64,000 nt of DNA from contig JAUVAS010000001.1 of assembly GCA_030591585.1 (NCBI GenBank), positions 122,036-186,035 of the forward strand. The letters run 5' to 3'. The notes beneath the pieces were generated by a model, which saw nothing but the letters and a program-made list of their open reading frames with translations, searched no databases and was not told where the DNA came from. This document shows positions 51,213-64,000 of this stretch, in pieces. This DNA is from Flavobacterium sp. (GTDB taxonomy: Bacteria; Bacteroidota; Bacteroidia; Flavobacteriales; Flavobacteriaceae). How positions within the stretch are numbered: position 1 is the stretch's first letter; each line of letters starts with the position of its first letter. Both the position numbers and the translations under genes were made by a program.

Positions 51213-52667
51213 TTATTCAGGAATTAACCACCAAAAAGGTTTCATTTTAGCTTTGTATAAAAAAGCATAATGCAGTGCAAGTTTTACCCAGTGACCTGCT
51301 AATCCAAGATCTCCAATAGTTTTAGAGTTTATTCTTCCTGTTTCAGGATATTTTTTATAATCTGGAACAATTGGATTAGTAGTAATGGTAACCCCTCTCC
51401 CTCTTAGCATTCCAAATCCTGTTGAAGCAATACATGCAGCACCCATATTACCCATTGAACCTAGATGGTGTAACTCATCATTTCCTTTTTTAATCATTTC
51501 CACAATGTTGTCTGCCACTAATTTTGCAGTAATCCCCGAAGGCATTCCAGTTCTTGGAGGAGTTGGGAAAATAGGAGTCCCATTGGTGCTTTTTCTTGGT
51601 TTTGAAATCCCATGAGGAGGAGCAAATGCTATCCCTGGGGCAAAAATATTTTTATAACTTGGGTTTTGATACGTCTCTGGCCAATCTTGTACTGTCCATT
51701 CTTCATAAGGTTTTTGAGTATAATCAGCATCTACAATCATAAAACCATTAAATAATTTTTGGGTAATATCATCACCATTTTTATCATATGCGCTAAACCC
51801 ATGACCCGAAAATGCTGGAATTAACATAGCAAAATCAAATTCCTCCGTTTTATGCTCTCCATTTAATGTTTCATAATGGACAATACCGTCTTCTACTTTG
51901 TTTACACCAGCTCTTTTAATAATGTCTATTCCACGGTCTTCAAAGACCATTTCTATGAGTTCTTGTGATGTGGTTAATTTTCCCCCCATAGTCACCATTA
52001 ATCCATCCATTCCAAAATCCCCAACTTCATATTCGTTAGAAATCCACGTCACAGTAGCTTTATCTCTTACTTTATGCCTGTTTAATTCTTGTTCAACATT
52101 CATAATATACTCAAAAGCGGCACCTTGACAAGTAGCTTTTGCATGACCAGTTCCAATTAGTATTTTAACGTTTACACCATTTTTCATACGGGTAATTAAT
52201 TTTTCAAAATCATTCCATGCGTGTTGGGCGTGATCATAGGTGCAAACGGAAGCAGTTTTATTGGTTCCAGGTTTTAAGCCTTCGGTTGCCTCAAAATTAA
52301 GTTTTGGACCTGTGGCATTAATTAAATAATCGTAGTCAACTTTAATGGTTTCTCCTTTTTGCTCACCAGTTACATATTCAGCACTAACAAAACCTTTGTC
52401 TGTTTCATTATCTCCTTCAGGATAAAAGGTGGTGACTTTAGCTTGAATATAGGTAATTCCCTTTTTTTTATAAAGAGGAGCTAATGGAAAAATAAGTTGG
52501 TCAGGTTTCATTCTACCTACTCCAACCCAAATATTAGAAGGGATCCATTGATAATTGCTGTTTGGTGAAACAACGACAACTTCGTGTTCTTTGGATAGGT
52601 TTTTTCTTAAATAGGATATTGCGGTATGTCCAGAAATACCAGCTCCTAAAACTACAATTTTTGCCAT
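51213..52667 (-). CDS. FAD/NAD(P)-dependent oxidoreductase, sulfide:quinone oxidoreductase-like
   Basis: MAKIVVLGAGISGHTAISYLRKNL (FAD), YDYLINATGPKLNF, CQGAAFEYIMNVEQ, FGMLRGRGVTITTNPIVPDY. Confidence 0.85.
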   Translation of the reverse strand: MAKIVVLGAGISGHTAISYLRKNLSKEHEVVVVSPNSNYQWIPSNIWVGVGRMKPDQLIFPLAPLYKKKGITYIQAKVTTFYPEGDNETDKGFVSAEYVTGEQKGETIKVDYDYLINATGPKLNFEATEGLKPGTNKTASVCTYDHAQHAWNDFEKLITRMKNGVNVKILIGTGHAKATCQGAAFEYIMNVEQELNRHKVRDKATVTWISNEYEVGDFGMDGLMVTMGGKLTTSQELIEMVFEDRGIDIIKRAGVNKVEDGIVHYETLNGEHKTEEFDFAMLIPAFSGHGFSAYDKNGDDITQKLFNGFMIVDADYTQKPYEEWTVQDWPETYQNPSYKNIFAPGIAFAPPHGISKPRKSTNGTPIFPTPPRTGMPSGITAKLVADNIVEMIKKGNDELHHLGSMGNMGAACIASTGFGMLRGRGVTITTNPIVPDYKKYPETGRINSKTIGDLGLAGHWVKLALHYAFLYKAKMKPFWWLIPE

Positions 52668-52839
52668 ATAATTTATTTTGGAACAAGGTAAGTCCTTGAC
52701 AAAGTGGTTACAGCAACTTTTGTTACAAATGGGTGCCTAAAGAATTTTTGTAGGCTATTGAGAGTAAAAAAGAATTCCTCTTGATTATAAACCTAAAGAA
52801 ACATTAGTTATTCAGCTTTGTGATAATTGTTACGTAAAA

Positions 52840-52882
52840 TGACAAATGTCACTTTTTTTTTTATTGGAGTTATATATTTTTG
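52840..52882 (+). promoter_or_regulatory. Putative Crp/Fnr-type site (TGACAAATGTCA, 52840-52851) and -7 element (TATTTTTG, 52875-52882)
   Basis: TGA-N6-TCA centred 43.5 bp before the ATG at 52889; same arrangement before 57977. Confidence 0.55.
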
Positions 52883-52888
52883 CAAATT

Positions 52889-53263
52889 ATGAATCGACAA
52901 AGGAGCATTTTTTCTTTAATACTCGTAACTGCATTGTTGTGGAATGTTTTTCATGTAGCAATTACGTATGGGTATTATTACTTAGATGAATCTGGATTTA
53001 TAGAACAATTCTGCGTCAATATAGAAAAGCCAGAATTAAAATGTGATGGAAAATGTCATTTAAAAGATGTTGCCCAAAAGGATTCAACTAATGATAAGGC
53101 TCCTTCAAAAATGATTACTTCAAAAGACGTTACATTTTTTGTTCAAGAAAAAGAAAAATTAGAGTTTGGCTATATTACTTATAACAAAAAGGAAGTAAAA
53201 ATATATAACAATCTTTACTCCTACTTAAGAGAATATTCCTTGTATCAACCTCCTCAAGTTTAA
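52889..53263 (+). CDS. Cys-rich small membrane-anchored protein (copy 1)
   Basis: One N-terminal TM then YYYLDESGFIEQFCVNIEKPELKCDGKCHLKDV; ATG at 52889 preferred over TTG 52880; paralogue at 57977. Confidence 0.75.
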   Translation: MNRQRSIFSLILVTALLWNVFHVAITYGYYYLDESGFIEQFCVNIEKPELKCDGKCHLKDVAQKDSTNDKAPSKMITSKDVTFFVQEKEKLEFGYITYNKKEVKIYNNLYSYLREYSLYQPPQV

Positions 53264-53384
53264 TCGATTTTCAGGTTTAATTCCCCGTCGCTCTGCGTCG
53301 AAATAAAAAAGGGAATTCCTTTTTGATATCTCGTACTCTTGGGTCGAGGTAGTTCATTTTCCATAATAAACAAATTTCACTATT

Positions 53385-53407
53385 CTATATTGATTAATTC
53401 AATATAG
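53385..53407. promoter_or_regulatory. 9-bp perfect inverted repeat CTATATTGA-ttaat-TCAATATAG
   Basis: Direct reading; in the gap before the TonB-dependent receptor. Confidence 0.6.
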
Positions 53408-53535
53408 GAATCTGTTTATGTTCTAAAATAATAGGATGTAAACCCTAGGTATTATGTGGAGGGTATTAAAATTCAATTCAAAAATAAAAGCCGTCACTAA
53501 ATCAATTAGCTGACGCAAACAAAAATAATAATATC

Positions 53536-55836
53536 ATGAAAAAATACATTTTAACAATATTGCTATGTATTAGCACCTTATCAATTTGGTCACAAGAAAT
53601 TACAGTAAAAGGAACTGTAGTTGACGCTTTTGATGAACCTTTAGAGGGCGTTTCTATCAAATCAAAAAAGTTAAATAAAGGAACAACAACAGATAAGACT
53701 GGAAATTTTATTCTAGAAAATATAGAGGAAGGTGAATGGTTAATTTTTTCATTTATAGGACATAATACATCTTCAGTTAAGGCAAAAGATGCGGTGTATG
53801 TCACTATGGATGAAGCTACAACAGACCTAGATATGGTGGTTGTAAGTGCTTCTCGAACGCTACAGAGACGTAAAGAACTTCCCGTAGCGATATCATCTGT
53901 TTCACGTTTGACAATGGATGAAGTAAATCCTATTTCTATAGATCAGGCTTTAAATCAAAAAACAGGGGTTCATATGATCGACTTAGGAAATGAGCAACAT
54001 ATGATGGCTATCCGTCAGCCAATATCTACCAAAAGTTTATATCTTTATCTAGAAGATGGAATTCCCATTAGACCCACAGGAGTTTTTAACCACAATGCTT
54101 TATTGGAAATGAATATGTTGGCCACTGAGAATATAGAAATTATACGAGGCCCTTATTCTTCTTTATACGGTAGTGAAGCGATTGGTGGAGCTATTAATTT
54201 TATTACAGAAAAACCGAGTAAAGCGTTGACAGGTAGATTAGGTTTAAGAGGGCATACCGATGGATACTTTAGAGGCGATTTTAAAATATCAAAAACATTT
54301 GGAAAAACAGGAGTTTACTTAGCGGTTTACAAATCGGCCATAAAAGACGGAATACGGGATTATGGTGATTATGATAAATTAGCTGTAACTGGTAAAGTTA
54401 CACATCAATTTTCTGACAAGTTAGATTGGTCAAACACCTTAACCTATGTAGATTATTTTAGTGAAATGAGTGGTAGTTTAGACGAGGAAAAATTTAAAAA
54501 TGAAGATTATTCTTCTTATCATACTTTTACTTTTAGAGATGCAAAAGCTTTGCGTTTTAATTCAACATTAAACGGAAAATGGAATGATCATAATATCTCT
54601 ACGTTAAGTTTAATATTTCGTGATAACACTATGAGGCAAAACCCCAGTTATAGAATTGCTAGTGATACTGAATTTGGAGAATACACAACAGGAGAGTTAA
54701 ACGACAATAGTTTTAAAACTTTTGCAGTTTATTTACAGCACAATTTTAAATTTGATGTAATGAAGTCAAATCTAATAGTAGGAGCAAACCTAGATTCAAG
54801 TCCTAAAACCTTTATTGCTGAACTATTAGATGTATACCGTAATGATGACGGTTTTTTTGAATCCTATACAGCTACAGGAGTGTATAAATCAGATTATGAA
54901 ACAGATATTGTCAATACGGGATTTTATTTAACAGGTGACATGGAGCCTTTTGATAATTTTAAAATAAATGCTGGTATCCGATATGATATTTATAGCTATG
55001 ATTTTAGAAATAAATTAGATGATGCCTCTGATTATTCATCAAAAGATGCAAAGGAAACTTTCACTTCAATTACACCACGTATAGGATTTGTATATAATTT
55101 CACCAAAAGTATAGGACTATATACAAACTATAGTGTTGGATTTATTCCACCTAGTATTGGAGATTTATTTAGAAAAGATGATGTGCCTTTATTAGATCCT
55201 TCAACATTTAATAATATAGAATTAGGCGGTTGGATTGGGTTATATAATAATAAACTATTTTTAGATTTTGCTGTGTATTCATTAAAAGGAAAAGATGAAG
55301 TAGTTTCAGTTACCATAAAAGAAGATGAAATTACAATGAGAGAGAATAAAAATGTAGGAGAAACCAAACACAATGGTGTTGAATTTGGCATTAATTATAA
55401 ACCTATAGAAGGTTTATCTATTCGTTATAATGGGGCATATTCTAAACATGAATATATAGATTTTGTAACAAAAATAGTAGATGGAGAACCTGTCAAAGAT
55501 TATAGTGGTAATGAAATGCCGGGAGCACCAGAATGGGTAACAAATGCAGGAATTGATTATAAACCAAAGGCTTTTTTAAAAGGCTTTAGAATAGGATTAG
55601 AGTGGCAACATGTAAGTGAATATTTTACAGATCAAGAAAATGAATATACTTATGAAGGTTATGATGCTTTTAATGCAAGATTGGGTTATGATATTAAACA
55701 CTTTGGTTTTTGGATGAATGTAATGAATTTGTCGGATAAATTATATGCAACAAGGGCCAATACAGATTGGGGTAGAACAACTTATACACCAGGAATGCCA
55801 CGTACTTTTATATTCGGTGTTAATTATAAGTTTTAA
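53536..55836 (+). CDS. TonB-dependent receptor with N-terminal carboxypeptidase-regulatory-like domain
   Basis: ITVKGTVVDAFDEPLEGVSIKSKKLNKGTTTDKTGNF; plug motif IEIIRGPYSSLYGSEAIGGAINFITEKP; C-terminal aromatic FGVNYKF. Confidence 0.95.
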   Translation: MKKYILTILLCISTLSIWSQEITVKGTVVDAFDEPLEGVSIKSKKLNKGTTTDKTGNFILENIEEGEWLIFSFIGHNTSSVKAKDAVYVTMDEATTDLDMVVVSASRTLQRRKELPVAISSVSRLTMDEVNPISIDQALNQKTGVHMIDLGNEQHMMAIRQPISTKSLYLYLEDGIPIRPTGVFNHNALLEMNMLATENIEIIRGPYSSLYGSEAIGGAINFITEKPSKALTGRLGLRGHTDGYFRGDFKISKTFGKTGVYLAVYKSAIKDGIRDYGDYDKLAVTGKVTHQFSDKLDWSNTLTYVDYFSEMSGSLDEEKFKNEDYSSYHTFTFRDAKALRFNSTLNGKWNDHNISTLSLIFRDNTMRQNPSYRIASDTEFGEYTTGELNDNSFKTFAVYLQHNFKFDVMKSNLIVGANLDSSPKTFIAELLDVYRNDDGFFESYTATGVYKSDYETDIVNTGFYLTGDMEPFDNFKINAGIRYDIYSYDFRNKLDDASDYSSKDAKETFTSITPRIGFVYNFTKSIGLYTNYSVGFIPPSIGDLFRKDDVPLLDPSTFNNIELGGWIGLYNNKLFLDFAVYSLKGKDEVVSVTIKEDEITMRENKNVGETKHNGVEFGINYKPIEGLSIRYNGAYSKHEYIDFVTKIVDGEPVKDYSGNEMPGAPEWVTNAGIDYKPKAFLKGFRIGLEWQHVSEYFTDQENEYTYEGYDAFNARLGYDIKHFGFWMNVMNLSDKLYATRANTDWGRTTYTPGMPRTFIFGVNYKF

Positions 55837-55899
55837 TCACAGAGTAATAGCTAAATAAAAGGGAAGTAAAGCGAGTACTTCTCTTTATAAAAAAATAAA

Positions 55900-57222
55900 A
55901 TGAAGAATATTAAATTTATAGTAATTATAGCATTGATAATTACCTCTATAGAATCTTGTAGAGAGAAAAGGACCTCATTGGATGACAAAAAAAATGTAGT
56001 AAATACAATAGAGGGTAATAAAAAGGATACCATTTATATGCTTACTAAACCTAATGTAAATTCTGAAGGTGCTTTTATCTTTAATTCAGGTAAAGATATA
56101 TTGATAAACTGGACAGAATGGTATAAAGACAGTAAGCAAAATGTATTAAAATTTGCTTTTTTTGATGAGAATTCACAAAAATTTTCAAAGCCAATTGTTG
56201 TTACTCCTTCTAAAGGACTTCAAATCCATGCTGAGAGTATGGCAAAAGTAGGCGTAACATCAAAAGGTATACTTTATGCGGTATTTAGAGTAAAATCTAA
56301 ATCTAGGAAAAATATGTTTGGTGGAAGTGTGTATTACACTATTTCTTCTGATAGAGGTTTAACATGGAGTCCTAATGTTAAATTAGTAGCAGATAAAAAT
56401 TCAGACAGTCAAAGTTTTTTTGATATCGCTTTGTTACCAGATGGCGAATTGGGAATAACGTGGCTAGACAATAGAAAGCCTATTCATAAAGACAGAAAAG
56501 GGAAAACATTATATTTTGCTAAAACAAATTCGGATAGAGGTTTTTATGAGGAATCACCAATTGCTGGATCTACCTGTGAGTGTTGTAGAACTGAAATTTA
56601 TGTAGATCAGCAAAAAAAAATACATATAGCTTATCGGAATATTATAGAAAGGGAAGAAGATTTTACAAATCCTAGTTTCACTTTAAGTAATGTAGAAATT
56701 AGAGATATGTATTATGTATCGTCTCAAGATAATGGAACTAGTTTTTCAGAACCGATACCTATAAGTAAAGACAATTGGCAGATTAATGGCTGTCCGCACA
56801 CAGGACCGTCATTGGCTAAAACTAATTCTAATTTAGCAGCGGTTTGGTTTACAGGTGCAAATAATAGTCCAGGAATTTTCTTTTCAAATTATGTAAATGA
56901 ACAGTTTACTGACAGAAAATTTTTAAGTAAAGAAGGACTTCATCCTCAAATGATTGCTAATAAAGGGAGATATTATATTGTTTATGAGGAATATTATGAA
57001 TTGGAAGATAAAGGATATACAAAAATAATGCTAGAAACTATAGAATCAACAATTGAAAACAAAATTTCAACTGAAATAAGCAGTCCTAAAACTAATAACA
57101 ACTGTGTTGTTATTAGTTCAATTAATCAATCAACAATATTGACCGCATGGGTAAATGTCAATACAAGAAATCCTAAGATTTTGTATAAGTTAATTAACAT
57201 AAAAAATAAAAAAAGAAATTAA
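55900..57222 (+). CDS. Sialidase-like (BNR repeat) beta-propeller lipoprotein with CECC motif
   Basis: Asp-box SSDRGLTW and SQDNGTSF; lipobox-like SIESCREK; STCECCRTEIY and INGCPHTGPS. Confidence 0.75.
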   Translation: MKNIKFIVIIALIITSIESCREKRTSLDDKKNVVNTIEGNKKDTIYMLTKPNVNSEGAFIFNSGKDILINWTEWYKDSKQNVLKFAFFDENSQKFSKPIVVTPSKGLQIHAESMAKVGVTSKGILYAVFRVKSKSRKNMFGGSVYYTISSDRGLTWSPNVKLVADKNSDSQSFFDIALLPDGELGITWLDNRKPIHKDRKGKTLYFAKTNSDRGFYEESPIAGSTCECCRTEIYVDQQKKIHIAYRNIIEREEDFTNPSFTLSNVEIRDMYYVSSQDNGTSFSEPIPISKDNWQINGCPHTGPSLAKTNSNLAAVWFTGANNSPGIFFSNYVNEQFTDRKFLSKEGLHPQMIANKGRYYIVYEEYYELEDKGYTKIMLETIESTIENKISTEISSPKTNNNCVVISSINQSTILTAWVNVNTRNPKILYKLINIKNKKRN

Positions 57223-57394
57223 AAACATTTTTTTTCAATTTGATTTTAAATCCAAGTAAAGGTAAAACTATCCATAAACAGAGTGCTAAAATGAAAGAAA
57301 AGTTACAAGTTTAATTGGAATGACAATTGGAGCAGATGGTGTTTGTAATTAAACCGCTTTAGAAAATGCGTTTATTTTAAACATCAGTATCAAT

Positions 57395-57665
57395 GTTGTT
57401 TATAAAATGTTCCTTCGGGAACTTTAAGGGGAATGTTGGGTTATATAATATAGGGAAAGATACCAAGGAATAATTTACCGCTAATAAGCCCTTTTGTATA
57501 TAAAGCAGCATCTCATTTTAAAAAGAGCTTTTACAATGGTCTTTATATGTAAAAGTAGGAGTTGAAAACCTTTTTGACACCTCTTATTCAACCTATGCAG
57601 ATTGGAATAATATACCAAGAATGGGACAAATTTTTTTTATAAATGCTTCTTATGTGATTCGGTAG
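57395..57665 (+). pseudogene. Decayed TonB-dependent receptor C-terminus
   Basis: Broken frames read NNLPLISPFVYKAASHFKK and LQWSLYVKVGVENLFDTSYSTYADWNNIPRMGQIFFINASYVIR*, separated by a frameshift, with an in-frame stop upstream. Confidence 0.8.
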
Positions 57666-57669
57666 AAGT

Positions 57670-57798
57670 TTATTTCTTTTTTTCGCTATTCATAAAAGAA
57701 ATTAAAACAACAACAAGAACCACACAAACTAAAGCAAAAATCCCAATCATTATTACCCCATTAGAATAGTTGTAAAGTGCAATATTTTGAAGAATCAT
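57670..57798 (-). CDS. Small single-TM protein (42 aa)
   Basis: MILQNIALYNYSNGVIMIGIFALVCVVLVVVLISFMNSEKKK*; below the track cutoff. Confidence 0.5.
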   Translation of the reverse strand: MILQNIALYNYSNGVIMIGIFALVCVVLVVVLISFMNSEKKK

Positions 57799-57927
57799 AT
57801 GATTAGTTTTTAATTATTTTCGATTATCAAAGTTACAAATGTTTTAATAAAGTAAAATGATATTTATCAGTTGGAGGAAAAAGCATCTAAGGATAAGATA
57901 TTTTTGAATGAAATATTTCTGATTTTA

Positions 57928-57970
57928 TGATTTTTGTCACCTCTTAAAAATTAGAATGACAGTAATTTTG
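57928..57970 (+). promoter_or_regulatory. Putative Crp/Fnr-type site (TGATTTTTGTCA, 57928-57939) and -7 element (TAATTTTG, 57963-57970)
   Basis: Site centred 43.5 bp before the ATG at 57977; matches the arrangement at 52840. Confidence 0.55.
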
Positions 57971-57976
57971 TAGCTT

Positions 57977-58354
57977 ATGTATTTTAAGAAAACCATTTTT
58001 TCTTTATTATTATTATTTGCTCTTTTTTGGAACACTTTTTACGTGTCTTTAACTTATGCTTATTATTATGTAGATCAACCTGGTTTTATAGAACGGTTTT
58101 GTGGAAATATTGACAAACCAGAAATGAAATGTAATGGGAAGTGCCACCTTAAAGATGTTGTTGAGAAGAAGACAGCGAATGAAGATGTACCACTAAATAT
58201 GATTGTCTTAGAAGAACCTACACTATTTTTTAAAAACATCAAAAACATTAATTTAAACTCTGAAAGTATAGAAATAAAGCAACAACCCGAGTGGTATTTT
58301 AATTTCTATACCTATACACGAACCTACTCATTAGATCGCCCTCCACAGGTGTGA
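57977..58354 (+). CDS. Cys-rich small membrane-anchored protein (copy 2)
   Basis: YYYVDQPGFIERFCGNIDKPEMKCNGKCHLKDV; same length and C-terminus (PPQV) as copy 1. Confidence 0.78.
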   Translation: MYFKKTIFSLLLLFALFWNTFYVSLTYAYYYVDQPGFIERFCGNIDKPEMKCNGKCHLKDVVEKKTANEDVPLNMIVLEEPTLFFKNIKNINLNSESIEIKQQPEWYFNFYTYTRTYSLDRPPQV

Positions 58355-58403
58355 ATTAAATCCCCAAAACACATGTTATTTTAATAGAAAGAAATACTAA
58401 GTC

Positions 58404-58550
58404 TTGGATTTATGCTCTTGTGGGATTTTCCTGTATTTAGGGTTCTATTCTATAAAACGAAAGGAACGATTTAGTTTACTATGTGTATTGGCAGGTACAT
58501 TATACCAAAGCCTAGCATTACTAATTGCTAGCGTTATTATTTCACATTAA
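58404..58550 (+). CDS. Possible small two-TM protein (48 aa, TTG start) or remnant
   Basis: MDLCSCGIFLYLGFYSIKRKERFSLLCVLAGTLYQSLALLIASVIISH*; lies between copy 2 and the TonB-dependent receptor. Confidence 0.3.
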   Translation: MDLCSCGIFLYLGFYSIKRKERFSLLCVLAGTLYQSLALLIASVIISH

Positions 58551-58564
58551 ATAAAAATTATAAA

Positions 58565-60664
58565 ATGAAAAATATTTTTAGTATGCTCCTTTGCATACTG
58601 TTATTCAATAGCGCTTTTTCACAAGATAAAAATGAAAAAGTTAAAGACACAAGTGCATTAAAAATAATTGAAATTGATGAGGTTATCGTTGTGGGAAATG
58701 CTACAATAGATCCTGTATTTTCAGCAGTTTCTAATAATTATGCCGAGAGAGTTGTACAGCCAAAAAATGTTGCTGAATTATTTGAAAGCATCAACGGAAT
58801 TTCAACGATAAAAAGAGGGAGTTATGCAATGGATCCTTCTTTTAGAGCAGCTCAATACGAGCAACTTAATATTATGTACGATGGAGGTACTAAAGTTGTC
58901 AATGCTTGTCCAAATCGAATGGACCCAATAACAACCCATGTTACTCCCGAAGAGGTTACTAAAATTGAAGTTATAAAAGGCCCATACTCTGTACGTTATG
59001 GAGCTACATTTGGAGGAATCATCAATGTGGTTACCACTAAACCAGGTTCAGAAGAGTTTGGGTTTAATGGAAATATTTCAGCAGGTTATGAAACCAACGG
59101 GAACTCTTTTGTAACTATGTTAGGTCTTCAAAAAGCTACTAATAAATATGATATAGCTGGAAATTTTGGTTATCGAGATTACGGAAGTTATGAAGACGGA
59201 GGCGGGACAGAGGTCCCTTCTTCCTTTAGAAGTACAGATTATGGAATAAAATTTGGGTATAATTTTACAGATGATCAGCGTATTAAACTTACATGGAGAC
59301 AATCTTTTGGTAGAGATGTACAACATGCAGGATTGCCGATGGATACAGATTATGATAATAGTAGTATCCTGTCTTTAGACTATAATTTACATATTGGAAA
59401 GTTTATTAAAAAAGTTACCGCAAAAGCGTATTATAGTTATGTAGATCATCTAATGAATAATTATGACAGACCTTCTTTTATGATGATGGAAGCCTCTTCT
59501 CCAGTAGAAGCTACAACTGTAGGCGGAAAACTGGAGTTTGTATTAGATCCTTCAAACAAGTTTAAACTTTTTAGCGGACTTGACTTTATTCATATAGGAA
59601 GAGACGGTGTAAGAAACCGACTTGTAAAAATTATGAATGGAGAGCCATTACCTATGCCAATGGAGTTTGTTGATAAAGTTTGGCAGGATTCCTATATTAA
59701 TGATATGGGGATATTTACTGAAACAAAATGGTATGCAAATAGCACCACTATTTTTACGGGTGGAATCCGGTATGATCTAGTAGTTTCAGATATTCAAGAC
59801 CCAGAAGAAGATTTTGCTGAAATGTATGATTTAAAAAAGCGTACAGAAAATAATGTAAGTGGGACGGTTTCGGTTAGAAAATTGGTGTCTGATAATGTCA
59901 CTCTTGAAGCTGCGTACGGAAGAGGAGTGCGTTCTGCAAATATGACCGAACGCTTTATCAATCATTTTACAATAGGAGAAGACCCTTATGAATATATAGG
60001 AAACCCAGGCTTAAAAGCAGAAGTAAATAACCAGTTTGAAATTGGGATTAAAGGTAAAGTAGATCTAAAAAAAGGGTTTAATAGGCTTAGTTATGATGCT
60101 TCTTTTTATTATTCTTTTTTTGAAAACCTTATTGTAGCTCAAATAGACGAAGACTTAATTAGAAAGTTTAACCCTATGTTGGAGCCTATTCATCCAAAAG
60201 TATTTAGAAATATAGATGACGCTTATAAGACAGGTTTTGAAATTATGGCTAAACTAGATTTTCTTGATGACTTTTATTTTAAAACAGAATTGGCTTATGT
60301 TTATACAGAGAATAAAGATTATGGCGAATCTATTCCTCTAACTCCACCTCTCACAACAAGATTGTTTTTGGGATATGAAACGGATAAGTATTGGATAAAC
60401 GGTCAATATAATATAGTAGCAGAACAAACAAATATAGCTGAGACTTTTGGAGAAACTATAACAGAGGGCTGGTCTACTTTTGATCTTAGATTTGGAATAA
60501 TTCCTATAGAAAAACTTACACTAGGTGTAGCGATTTTAAATATTTTTGATGAAGAATATAATAATCATTTAAACTTTTCTTATACGAATCAAGAAGACTT
60601 TATACGGAAGCCTATTAATGATCCTGGAAGAAACTTCACAGCTTTTATTCAATATAAGTTTTAA
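58565..60664 (+). CDS. TonB-dependent receptor, probable copper receptor (OprC/NosA-like metal site)
   Basis: Plug NACPNRMDP (CxxxM, C115/M119) and HLM (H295/M297); IEVIKGPYSVRYGATFGGIINVVTTKP; C-terminal FIQYKF. Confidence 0.9.
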   Translation: MKNIFSMLLCILLFNSAFSQDKNEKVKDTSALKIIEIDEVIVVGNATIDPVFSAVSNNYAERVVQPKNVAELFESINGISTIKRGSYAMDPSFRAAQYEQLNIMYDGGTKVVNACPNRMDPITTHVTPEEVTKIEVIKGPYSVRYGATFGGIINVVTTKPGSEEFGFNGNISAGYETNGNSFVTMLGLQKATNKYDIAGNFGYRDYGSYEDGGGTEVPSSFRSTDYGIKFGYNFTDDQRIKLTWRQSFGRDVQHAGLPMDTDYDNSSILSLDYNLHIGKFIKKVTAKAYYSYVDHLMNNYDRPSFMMMEASSPVEATTVGGKLEFVLDPSNKFKLFSGLDFIHIGRDGVRNRLVKIMNGEPLPMPMEFVDKVWQDSYINDMGIFTETKWYANSTTIFTGGIRYDLVVSDIQDPEEDFAEMYDLKKRTENNVSGTVSVRKLVSDNVTLEAAYGRGVRSANMTERFINHFTIGEDPYEYIGNPGLKAEVNNQFEIGIKGKVDLKKGFNRLSYDASFYYSFFENLIVAQIDEDLIRKFNPMLEPIHPKVFRNIDDAYKTGFEIMAKLDFLDDFYFKTELAYVYTENKDYGESIPLTPPLTTRLFLGYETDKYWINGQYNIVAEQTNIAETFGETITEGWSTFDLRFGIIPIEKLTLGVAILNIFDEEYNNHLNFSYTNQEDFIRKPINDPGRNFTAFIQYKF

Positions 60665-60682
60665 ACAATATAAAATAGCACA

Positions 60683-60712
60683 AAAGAGGCTCCTACTATT
60701 AGGAGCCTCTTT
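60683..60712. terminator. Bidirectional terminator between TonB-dependent receptor and Crp/Fnr gene
   Basis: AAAGAGGCTCCT-actatt-AGGAGCCTCTTT. Confidence 0.88.
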
Positions 60713-60736
60713 CATTTAATTTGTTAGAGCAATTAT

Positions 60737-61393
60737 CTAATCAAGGTTTTCAACAATAATTCTATTACGGCGAATGGTTATTTGCCCTTCATTTTCAAGG
60801 CGTTTCAATAAACGAGATACCACAACTCTAGAGGTATTGATGTCGTCTGCTATTTCTTGATGAGTGATTACAAGGGTATTGTCTTTTGCAATTTTAACTT
60901 TATCAATTAAGTGTTTGTAAAGTCTATCTTGTAAATTTAAAAAGGCAAGTCTATCTATGGATTCTACCATTTCTATCAAACGAAAATGATAACTATCAAT
61001 AATAAAACGCCGCCAAGAATCATATTTTTTTAACCATTCCCCAACCATATTAACAGGAATAAATACCCCTTCAGCATCTCGTGTAACTACTCCTCTGAAC
61101 ATGCTTTTATTTCTATTGATACAGTTTGCAAAAGAGATGGCACAAGTATTTCCTTTTTCTAAATAGTATAAAACAATATCATCTCCTTTTTCATCTTCGC
61201 GCATAATTTTCACGACACCTTCAACCAATAAAGGAATGTGTGTCATTTCATCGTCTATATCAATAAGTGTTTCTCCTTTTTTTAGAGTTTTAAACTCACC
61301 TATTTCAATAATTTCATTGATGAGGTCTGTTTCAAAAATTGAAGAGAAACTTTCTTTTAATTTTTCTTCGATTAGGGTTTTTTTAGTAGGCAT
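60737..61393 (-). CDS. Crp/Fnr family transcriptional regulator
   Basis: cNMP-like domain and C-terminal HTH (ITHQEIADDINTSRVVVSRLLKRLENEGQITIRRNRI). Confidence 0.93.
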   Translation of the reverse strand: MPTKKTLIEEKLKESFSSIFETDLINEIIEIGEFKTLKKGETLIDIDDEMTHIPLLVEGVVKIMREDEKGDDIVLYYLEKGNTCAISFANCINRNKSMFRGVVTRDAEGVFIPVNMVGEWLKKYDSWRRFIIDSYHFRLIEMVESIDRLAFLNLQDRLYKHLIDKVKIAKDNTLVITHQEIADDINTSRVVVSRLLKRLENEGQITIRRNRIIVENLD

Positions 61394-61424
61394 ATTTGGA
61401 ATCATTAATTATTGCAAATTTACG

Positions 61425-61466
61425 AAAAAAAAGGCTGTCTTCCGAAATTTCGGGGCAGACAGCCTC
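61425..61466 (-). terminator. Terminator after the porin gene
   Basis: Minus-strand GGCTGTCT...CCGAAATTTCGG...AGACAGCC followed by a T-run. Confidence 0.85.
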
Positions 61467-61501
61467 TTCCAATAAAAACTAACCAATGAAAACAAAATTA
61501 T

Positions 61502-62542
61502 TTAAAATTTCACTTGCACTTGTGCTAAAAACATATCATTGTCAATATTGACATCGGTTTCAATATGAGCTTGATAATTTAATTGAAATCTAATATTTTT
61601 TCCTACAAAATAGCTTGCTCCAATAGTCATCATTTCTTGATAACCAATATCTAAAACGTCCAAGTTGGCATCAAAATACTCATATTTAAAGACAGGCTGT
61701 AGGTTCCATTTTGTATCATAATAAATCATTGCATAGGCTCCAGCTCTTTCTTCGCCTAATTCAACAAGAACATCTCCACAACCACCACCGGCTCCTCTGT
61801 TAAAAGCGCCTTCGTCATAAATATATTCTCCTTGAAAATGGAAATTACTATATTCAGCTGCTATTTCTACTCCATATGTAGTTCTTGAATCATCAATATT
61901 AGTTGGGTATCCATATCTAAAGCTACCCCCTACAGTTACATAATCTAAAACCTTATAAGTAGCTCTACCTATAATGTCTTTTTTAGAGTTATTGTCTGAA
62001 GTAAGTAAACCACTACCATTCATCAATGCCACAGCATAATTAAACTTTGTAAATTTATTTCCGCCAAAAACCATCATACCATAATCTCTTTGTGGAGCAA
62101 CTAACTGGTTAACCACAACAGATCGACTAATTGTTGCAAGCGCATGACATGGTGTTGACACCTCTAAACTAAAAGGTTGTTTAAACGAACCAACAGACAT
62201 TTGAGCCCAGTTATACTTTCTATAACTTACAAAGGCATCTAGCAATACAACACTCCCGGTACCACTTACAAAAGGACTAGTTTCTAAAGAAAAGTAGTAA
62301 TGGAAATTCTCATAAATTTCACCTCTAACTCCTACTCTGGCTCTTTTAAATTTAAAAGTATTCTCATTGTCATCATTAAAAGTATATTCATATTGTGGTT
62401 GTAAAAAACCAAATACTATTACTTTTTTATTTATAGAATCATTAGATGTTGATGCATCATCCCCATCACAACCTTGCGAAAAGGCATTATTTATTTGAAA
62501 CATAAATACTAGTGCAACTGTTAATATTATTTTATTTTTCAT
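61502..62542 (-). CDS. Porin (OprO/P-like beta-barrel)
   Basis: Signal peptide; FKFKRARVGVRGEIYENFHYYFSLE, QMSVGSFKQPFSLE; barrel-like C-terminus AQVQVKF. Confidence 0.85.
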   Translation of the reverse strand: MKNKIILTVALVFMFQINNAFSQGCDGDDASTSNDSINKKVIVFGFLQPQYEYTFNDDNENTFKFKRARVGVRGEIYENFHYYFSLETSPFVSGTGSVVLLDAFVSYRKYNWAQMSVGSFKQPFSLEVSTPCHALATISRSVVVNQLVAPQRDYGMMVFGGNKFTKFNYAVALMNGSGLLTSDNNSKKDIIGRATYKVLDYVTVGGSFRYGYPTNIDDSRTTYGVEIAAEYSNFHFQGEYIYDEGAFNRGAGGGCGDVLVELGEERAGAYAMIYYDTKWNLQPVFKYEYFDANLDVLDIGYQEMMTIGASYFVGKNIRFQLNYQAHIETDVNIDNDMFLAQVQVKF

Positions 62543-62564
62543 CTCGCTTATTATTTATATTCTA

Positions 62565-63569
62565 CTAATTTACTAGCGGTAAATTTTTTGAAACAGACTC
62601 ACTCCATTGGTTTGAAACCCAAGCAGGGTTTGAATTGTACAATCCATTCATCCCAAATTTTAAACTATATGCATCATAACCCAACACATTTAACCAAGCA
62701 GTTACAACTGCTGAAGTTTGTCCTGTATAACAATAAGTAACAACAGCATTTGCGTCAGGATCTAAGCCTTGATATCCATTACCAGCAAGCAATAGGTCTT
62801 CTAGTATACGATAAGCACCAGTGATATGTCCAAACCCAGTATAATCAGTTGAATTGAAATAATTATTTATATAATAATCACTTGGAGAATCAAGCACTTC
62901 TGTTGAAGAAAACCCTTTAAACCCCTCTGTAATAACCTGTGCAATTCTATTATTTAGTATTACTTCTCCTTCTGTTTCAAAACTGGAAATATCAGGATCT
63001 CCAAAAACTGGTGCTGCTGTTGCATCTGCATAATCCCAATTTGCATGACCTGCTGCAGGATCACCAATTGCACCATTCCAAGCACCTGCTGTAGCTGAAT
63101 TCCATCCAGACATACCCCATTTTAATGCTTGCGTACTACTATATCCTGATAAACGTAATAGCGCAGTTCCATAACATGCAGTCTGGCCTGTATAACAAAC
63201 CACCAAAATAGGTTGTCCACCAGCTACAGGAGCCTCGTCTAAAATATTTGCAAAAGGAACATTTTTAGCACCTTCTATATGGCTTGTGCCAAAATCGGCA
63301 GCACTTCTAATATCAATAATATAATACTTGTCTAAAAAAACTTGTAAGTCTGCTTCTTCAGGTGCGCCAGTAACAAATTTTGCGCCTTCTGCATTGACGA
63401 TTATTTTATCTAAGTCCAAGTCGTTGGCAAGCATATAATCTTTCATAAGTGAAAATGCAGGCGTGGTGATTACAGAACCATCTGATAAATCATCACCTCT
63501 GTCACAAGAAGTAAGGAGTAATGATGGTATCAACAATAATCCGATAAGAAATAATGATAATTTTTTCAT
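62565..63569 (-). CDS. Double rhodanese-domain lipoprotein
   Basis: Lipobox LLLTSCDRG; two active-site loops VVCYTGQTA and VTYCYTGQTS. Confidence 0.92.
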   Translation of the reverse strand: MKKLSLFLIGLLLIPSLLLTSCDRGDDLSDGSVITTPAFSLMKDYMLANDLDLDKIIVNAEGAKFVTGAPEEADLQVFLDKYYIIDIRSAADFGTSHIEGAKNVPFANILDEAPVAGGQPILVVCYTGQTACYGTALLRLSGYSSTQALKWGMSGWNSATAGAWNGAIGDPAAGHANWDYADATAAPVFGDPDISSFETEGEVILNNRIAQVITEGFKGFSSTEVLDSPSDYYINNYFNSTDYTGFGHITGAYRILEDLLLAGNGYQGLDPDANAVVTYCYTGQTSAVVTAWLNVLGYDAYSLKFGMNGLYNSNPAWVSNQWSESVSKNLPLVN

Positions 63570-63614
63570 GATAAATAATTTTAGTTGGTTAAAAAATGTA
63601 TAAAAATGTTTTTG

Positions 63615-64000
63615 TTATTCAATTACAGGATACATGTTGACTTCCTTTTTAGAAAATCCATTCCACCCTTTTTCTTTTAATGTTTTATTCATAAAGCTAT
63701 TTGCTCCGTATGCTAAATTTCCAGCATCGTATCCAATTAGGTTTAAGTAAGCAACTACATAAGCTGCGCTTTGACCAGTAGAGCAATACACTAATACTTG
63801 TTTGTCTGTAGGTAGGGTATATAAGTCTGTAGTAGATGAGAATGAAGCTTTAGGTTGATATTGAACAGCACCTGTTATATGGCCTGTAGAATAATCTTCT
63901 TCATTCCAGTAATTAACTATATAATAGTCATCTGGGCTTTCAAAAACCACTGGAGACTTAATAATATATTCTTTATAAGGTTTTGCAAAAGCTTCTTCTA
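63615..64000 (-). CDS. Rhodanese-domain protein, C-terminal part (5' end outside window)
   Basis: VLVYCSTGQSAAYVVAYLNLIGYDAGNLAYGANSF; frame stays open to the window edge (EAFAKPYKEYIIKSPVVFESP). Confidence 0.88.
   Translation of the reverse strand, partial: EEAFAKPYKEYIIKSPVVFESPDDYYIVNYWNEEDYSTGHITGAVQYQPKASFSSTTDLYTLPTDKQVLVYCSTGQSAAYVVAYLNLIGYDAGNLAYGANSFMNKTLKEKGWNGFSKKEVNMYPVIE

Follow-up and report, generated by a model that had tools for sequence, protein, structure and literature searches.

Is a TonB-dependent receptor of Flavobacterium sp. an importer of copper, and how might its production be set? To our knowledge, outer-membrane copper import is understood in detail from only a few Proteobacteria. 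The receptor is encoded in a stretch of 64,000 nucleotides (GCA_030591585.1, contig JAUVAS010000001.1, positions 122,036 to 186,035 of the forward strand), which is referred to here as the window. An earlier inspection of the DNA letters, here called the sequence-only reading, had pointed to the residue pairs C115/M119 and H295/M297, likened them to the copper site of OprC from Pseudomonas aeruginosa, and proposed copper as the substrate.

The receptor is most similar to OprC in sequence and predicted fold

The receptor and the residues considered below are:

58565–60664, + strand: OprC-type TonB-dependent receptor, 699 aa (phmmer, TIGR01778, Plug and barrel Pfam domains, AlphaFold model)
58907–58921, + strand: CPNRM, C115 to M119, in the plug (columns of OprC C143 to M147)
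59339–59341, + strand: M259, methionine track (column of OprC Met286)
59447–59455, + strand: HLM, H295 to M297, barrel strand end (columns of OprC H323 to M325)

Translation of 58565–60664 on the + strand placed the four residues exactly as claimed, with codons starting at 58907 (C115), 58919 (M119) and 59447 (H295) and M297 encoded at 59453–59455. The OprC copper ligands are likewise those named in that reading, C143, M147, H323 and M325 (PMC8610252). OprC (6fok) was the best sequence match among solved structures in a phmmer search (E=3.4e-45, receptor residues 34–699), and the next protein was PhuR at 3.7e-12. A comparison with the TonB-dependent copper receptor family had been suggested as a check. 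TIGR01778 (TonB-copper) was by far the best NCBIfam model (266 bits, E=8.4e-79), but the score lies under the equivalog cut-off of 472 bits, and the receptor is therefore placed in a sister subfamily outside the named equivalog.

In both the phmmer and the MAFFT alignments C115, M119, H295 and M297 occupy the ligand columns of OprC. The motif ACPNRMD has the same letters in the two proteins, and YYSYVDHLMNNY of the window receptor is aligned with YYNYADHIMDNF of OprC. The sequence-only reading had also stressed that the C-to-H distance (180) and the M-to-M distance (178) equal those of OprC. The numbers are right, but they are weak evidence because they are net of insertions and deletions: between the Cys and the His, four residues are found only in the window protein and four only in OprC. 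Equal spacing was therefore rejected as proof of a copper site; the weight lies on the homology together with the conserved columns. M259 is the counterpart of OprC Met286, a silver ligand (PMC8610252), and is a Met throughout the relatives in that alignment. Most of the OprC methionine track is not conserved in the receptor; of the methionines at OprC 338–343, one is aligned (M308) and is not kept in relatives, and the others have no counterpart.

A structure prediction, also suggested earlier, was performed with AlphaFold2 on a 44-row alignment and yielded a model with pLDDT 87.4 and pTM 0.85. The model shows a plug and a TonB barrel, with H295 and M297 located at a barrel strand end. In a Foldseek search against the PDB its best 28 matches were OprC chains without exception (E 2e-42 to 2e-39, TM about 0.8, identity 23–24%), followed by PhuR at 5.6e-36. 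At the level of the fold, OprC is thus the best match among solved structures.

The ligand quartet is kept among close relatives and varies in distant homologues

Receptor homologues were detected at E<1e-30 in 60 of 396 sampled Bacteroidota genomes, and 59 loci besides the window were examined. C/M/H/M is present in 34 of these, whereas 19 have Gly in place of the Cys and keep M (one I), H and M, and five have none of the four ligands (W-RY/F). In the one further locus the receptor is broken by a stop, and the plug half is missing from the ORF that was read. An alignment of 44 diverse homologues contains 13 invariant columns, among them M119, H295 and M297; in the C-type set, C115 is invariant as well. 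Orthologues lacking the quartet had been named beforehand as evidence that would speak against the proposal. None were found in the clade, where the quartet is present in each of the 26 intact C-type sequences that were set against OprC, but the distant homologues vary as described.

A contig scan retrieved 80 named relatives from Psychroserpens, Winogradskyella, Algibacter, Maribacter, Zobellia, Polaribacter and others. Because the scan pattern ACP[NS]RMDP preset the CxxxM half, only the HxM half is independent in this set; it reads DHxM in 79 relatives and GHLM in one. The C-to-H distance takes a single constant value in 78 of the 80. Two close same-genus relatives contain ACTNRMD and ACANRMD, both together with DHLM.

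In a related subfamily (L037, L038, L109–L121 and others), GPARMD replaces CPNRMD, so that a Gly stands at the position of the copper Cys while M, H and M are kept. Its members mostly have a Cys-rich leader ending in HPP, and their ligand may be different. Two distant same-genus homologues (L257, L258) have ACTDKMD with HVM or HIM, and their leader and receptor are separated by a lipoprotein-like gene that contains MMHM and SHSCPKSE.

A cysteine-rich ORF ending in Pro-Pro precedes the receptor gene

Upstream of the receptor the window contains:

57977–58354, + strand: leader ORF, 125 aa, C42-x9-C52-N-G-K-C56, RPPQV end (family invariant columns, upstream position, hydrophobic segment)
58355–58564, + strand: leader–receptor gap, 210 nt (folds better than its shuffles, z = -2.8)

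The leader ORF has a hydrophobic, putatively membrane- or signal-like segment at residues 7–25. Only C42, N44, P48, C52, G54, C56, P122 and P123 are invariant across 18 members of its family, and the middle part is not conserved. In 159 of 160 members the C-x9-CxxxC span has the same length, and the distance from the last Cys to the Pro-Pro is 62–73 residues (160 members). A Pro-Pro occurs within the last 15 residues in 161 of 164 distinct members, compared with 5.8% of the other small ORFs of the same loci, an enrichment that is partly built in, since the search model includes the Pro-Pro columns. At loci beyond the reach of this model (L020, L022, L024, L026, L027, L035, L119, L121), other upstream Cys-rich ORFs likewise end in FHPP. 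RAPP was not found at the leader C terminus: in 148 of the 161 members the Pro-Pro follows H, K, R or Q, and an F stands one position further back in 106.

The pairing of leader and receptor is tight. A leader-family ORF lies directly 5' of the receptor in 79 of the 80 close relatives, with a median gap of 65 nt; three of these 79 leaders (L147, L148, L189) have no Pro-Pro end as read. Among the more distant loci, the leader is directly upstream of 27 of the 34 C/M/H/M homologues, 15 of the 19 Gly-type homologues and none of the five without ligands, and several exceptions have a family member one gene more distant on the upstream side, as judged from positions and from L257 and L258. When neighbourhoods of about 17 kb were compared for 20 relatives, the small upstream ORF was the only widely shared neighbour of the receptor, and no other gene was common to most loci. 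The family is present in 159 of the 396 Bacteroidota genomes and also heads genes that resemble SCO, MbnP/MbnH, PepSY and TonB-receptor types, as judged by inspection rather than by a family search.

No match to PF11162 (DUF2946) was obtained for 18 leader-family members even at E=10, and 39 relatives gave no match above the cut-off. Membership in DUF2946 was thus rejected at the profile level. The published description of CutF-like proteins comprises fewer than 150 aa, an N-terminal signal peptide, a Cys metal motif (CxxxC in CutF), a Pro-Pro in the last 15 residues and a same-strand gene within 1 kb (PMC9973294). The leader fits it with its 125 aa, its RPPQV end, the motif C52-N-G-K-C56 plus C42, and the same-strand receptor 210 nt downstream. 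Given the missing DUF2946 match, the longer distance from Cys to Pro-Pro and the missing RAPP, we regard the leader as working like CutF and CruR and not as a DUF2946 member. It is probably a copper sensor. Arrest at the Pro-Pro is a mechanism towards which we lean, and by analogy with CruR, copper would lower the output of the receptor.

A covarying hairpin lies between leader and receptor in close relatives

The gap of the window is about 145 nt longer than that of most relatives. The folding energy of leader–receptor gaps was rejected as evidence because control same-strand gaps fold almost equally well (mean z -1.8 against -1.9); only a hairpin that covaries in 13 close relatives stands. 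All five of its pairs show double changes, and none of 500 shuffles reached the covariation score. In a second alignment, built from another clade, the consensus hairpin was weaker. The hairpin could equally be an attenuator or terminator or a translation switch. No Rfam family was found in 52000–61500. The gap 58355–58564 also contains an open frame reading LDLCSCGIFLYLGFYSIKRKERFSLLCVLAGTLYQSLALLIASVIISH, without a counterpart in the relatives' loci compared.

A second leader-headed receptor is present in the window

A second leader–receptor cassette occupies 52889–57222:

52889–53263, + strand: second leader ORF of the same family, QPPQV end (own-genome match E=1.4e-36)
53536–55836, + strand: second TonB-dependent receptor, 766 aa, plug residues M147, H155, M157 and H186 (leader-headed homologues)
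55900–57222, + strand: BNR-repeat protein after the second receptor (PF13088)

All 26 homologues of the second receptor at ≥34% identity have a leader-family ORF upstream, in two cases with one gene between, and M147, H155, M157 and H186 are invariant in them. In three more distant homologues without a leader, V and T replace the two methionines. The second receptor is probably another kind of copper receptor, a candidate from a family different from the OprC type.

The BNR protein contains the Cys-rich motifs CECC and GCPHTG, and by inspection locus L097 has a similar order of leader, receptor and a protein that begins in a BNR-like way. At 57560–57667, between the BNR gene and the first-mentioned leader, the C-terminal end of a TonB receptor is present in degraded form (VGVENLFDTSYSTYADWNNIPRMGQIFFINASYVIR); a short blastp gave no match of it to the homologues of the second receptor. 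Neighbours on the minus strand, at 60737–63998, are a regulator of the Crp/Fnr type, rhodanese-domain proteins and a Porin_O_P porin that weakly matches ExtI of selenite/tellurite operons.

Proposed mechanism and alternatives

The proposal of copper as substrate is supported by the homology to OprC, the ligand quartet, the OprC-like AlphaFold model and the copper-type leader ORF upstream. Copper is very likely the substrate, which the receptor would both bind and transport. In the mechanism envisaged here, outer methionines (M259, perhaps M306–308) would probably lead copper in, and the metal would be held by C115 and M119 of the plug and by H295 and M297 of the barrel wall until a TonB pull on the plug released it to the periplasm. 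Ahead of the receptor gene, a small and presumably exported leader peptide would be translated; its Cys triad may sense copper, and its C-terminal Pro-Pro would slow the ribosome, so that receptor production would track copper status, as for CruR and CutF.

An OprC-type copper importer behind a copper-sensing leader is the explanation that we hold with good confidence, because OprC ranks first by both sequence and fold, the ligand columns and M259 are kept, leader and receptor are paired, and the leader family occurs before copper-type genes, as do the published CutF and CruR leaders. The copper enzymes of the genome, NosZ and a COX2 domain, were also counted in favour of copper import. Counted against this explanation were the TIGR01778 shortfall, the identity of about 24% to OprC, the mostly unconserved methionine track, the lack of DUF2946 and RAPP in the leader, its longer Cys-to-Pro-Pro distance than in CruR, and the 210-nt gap. 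The receptor might instead serve to import haem, a siderophore, zinc or a copper chelate, with the four residues kept for other reasons. The next best matches after OprC are haem-receptor models and the PhuR and ChuA structures, and some homologues have Gly for the Cys and yet retain M/H/M and the leader, so that the wider family may not have a single ligand. This is nevertheless rather improbable for the window receptor, for which OprC clearly leads the matches in both sequence and fold, whose clade keeps the full quartet, and whose leader family heads copper-type genes. Chance resemblance of the motif to that of OprC can be given next to no weight: the equal spacing is partly fortuitous, with four residues gained and four lost, but the homology to OprC runs end to end, and the four residues stand in ligand columns that are conserved across the phylum.

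It is also conceivable, if unlikely, that the upstream ORF is a stable periplasmic copper chaperone that passes on copper received from the receptor, and not a regulatory leader. Its Cys triad (C-x9-CxxxC), its hydrophobic N terminus and its joint inheritance with the receptor would suit such a role. However, conservation outside the Cys cluster is strongest for the terminal Pro-Pro and for its spacing from the Cys, a pattern that suits arrest leaders better than a folded chaperone. The middle of the protein is not conserved, and CutF itself is published as a protein that is degraded and works in cis (PMC9973294).

Significance and comparison with known systems

The general idea of such leaders is not new, since many CutF-like proteins have been counted in Bacteroidota, with TonB-like proteins named among their neighbours (PMC9973294). 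Nor is this the first OprC-like receptor of the phylum with the motif: G2EC70 of Bizionia argentinensis was noted in 2024 as OprC-like, with CxxxM-HxM, and proposed for copper uptake (PMC11213822). The link to the leader is the stronger finding. In the literature searched, no description was found of the firm pairing of a receptor with an H/K/R/Q-PP leader or of the second receptor family. Whether a separate family of copper-sensing arrest leaders (C-x9-CxGKC, terminal F-[H/K/R/Q]-P-P, no detectable DUF2946 homology) serves Bacteroidota as a general switch of copper-acquisition operons, including the OprC type and the second receptor family with its plug M/HxM/H site, seems to us evenly balanced. 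The present data extend the OprC site across Bacteroidota and tie it to this leader family. A survey from 2025 reported copper-related RAPP/RGPP leaders to be absent from Bacteroidota (PMC12992588), a gap that the H/K/R/Q-PP leaders could fill.

OprC of P. aeruginosa and NosA of P. stutzeri (PMC8610252) share with the window receptor the homologous plug and barrel, the columns of the CxxxM-HxM quartet and the Met286 counterpart. The window receptor differs in having about 24% identity, a score under the TIGR01778 cut-off, few of the methionine-track residues and a different leader family. G2EC70 is likewise a Flavobacteriaceae receptor with OprC similarity and CxxxM-HxM, a likeness taken from its published description, and in the part of that report consulted no upstream leader is described for it (PMC11213822). 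CrtA/BfrG is a TonB receptor linked to copper, and a copper leader heads its operon too, but unlike the window receptor CrtA lacks conserved Cys and Met residues and takes up Cu(II) in chelated form (PMC12914433).

Among leaders, CruR of Bordetella pertussis (DUF2946; PMC9426467, PMC12992588) is, like the presumably exported window leader, a small exported Cys ORF with a C-terminal Pro-Pro that heads a copper-type TonB receptor. Its relatives head copper TonB receptors including the OprC type (PMC9426467), and its arrest at RAPP was shown in vitro (PMC12992588). CruR has CXXC, RAPP and 45 residues from Cys to Pro-Pro, whereas the window leader family has CxxxC with a third Cys, [H/K/R/Q]PP and about 65 residues, and lacks a DUF2946 profile match. 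CutF resembles the window leader in size (under 150 aa), putative signal-like segment, CxxxC, terminal Pro-Pro and a nearby same-strand gene; it heads a multicopper oxidase, whereas the window leader heads a receptor (PMC9973294).
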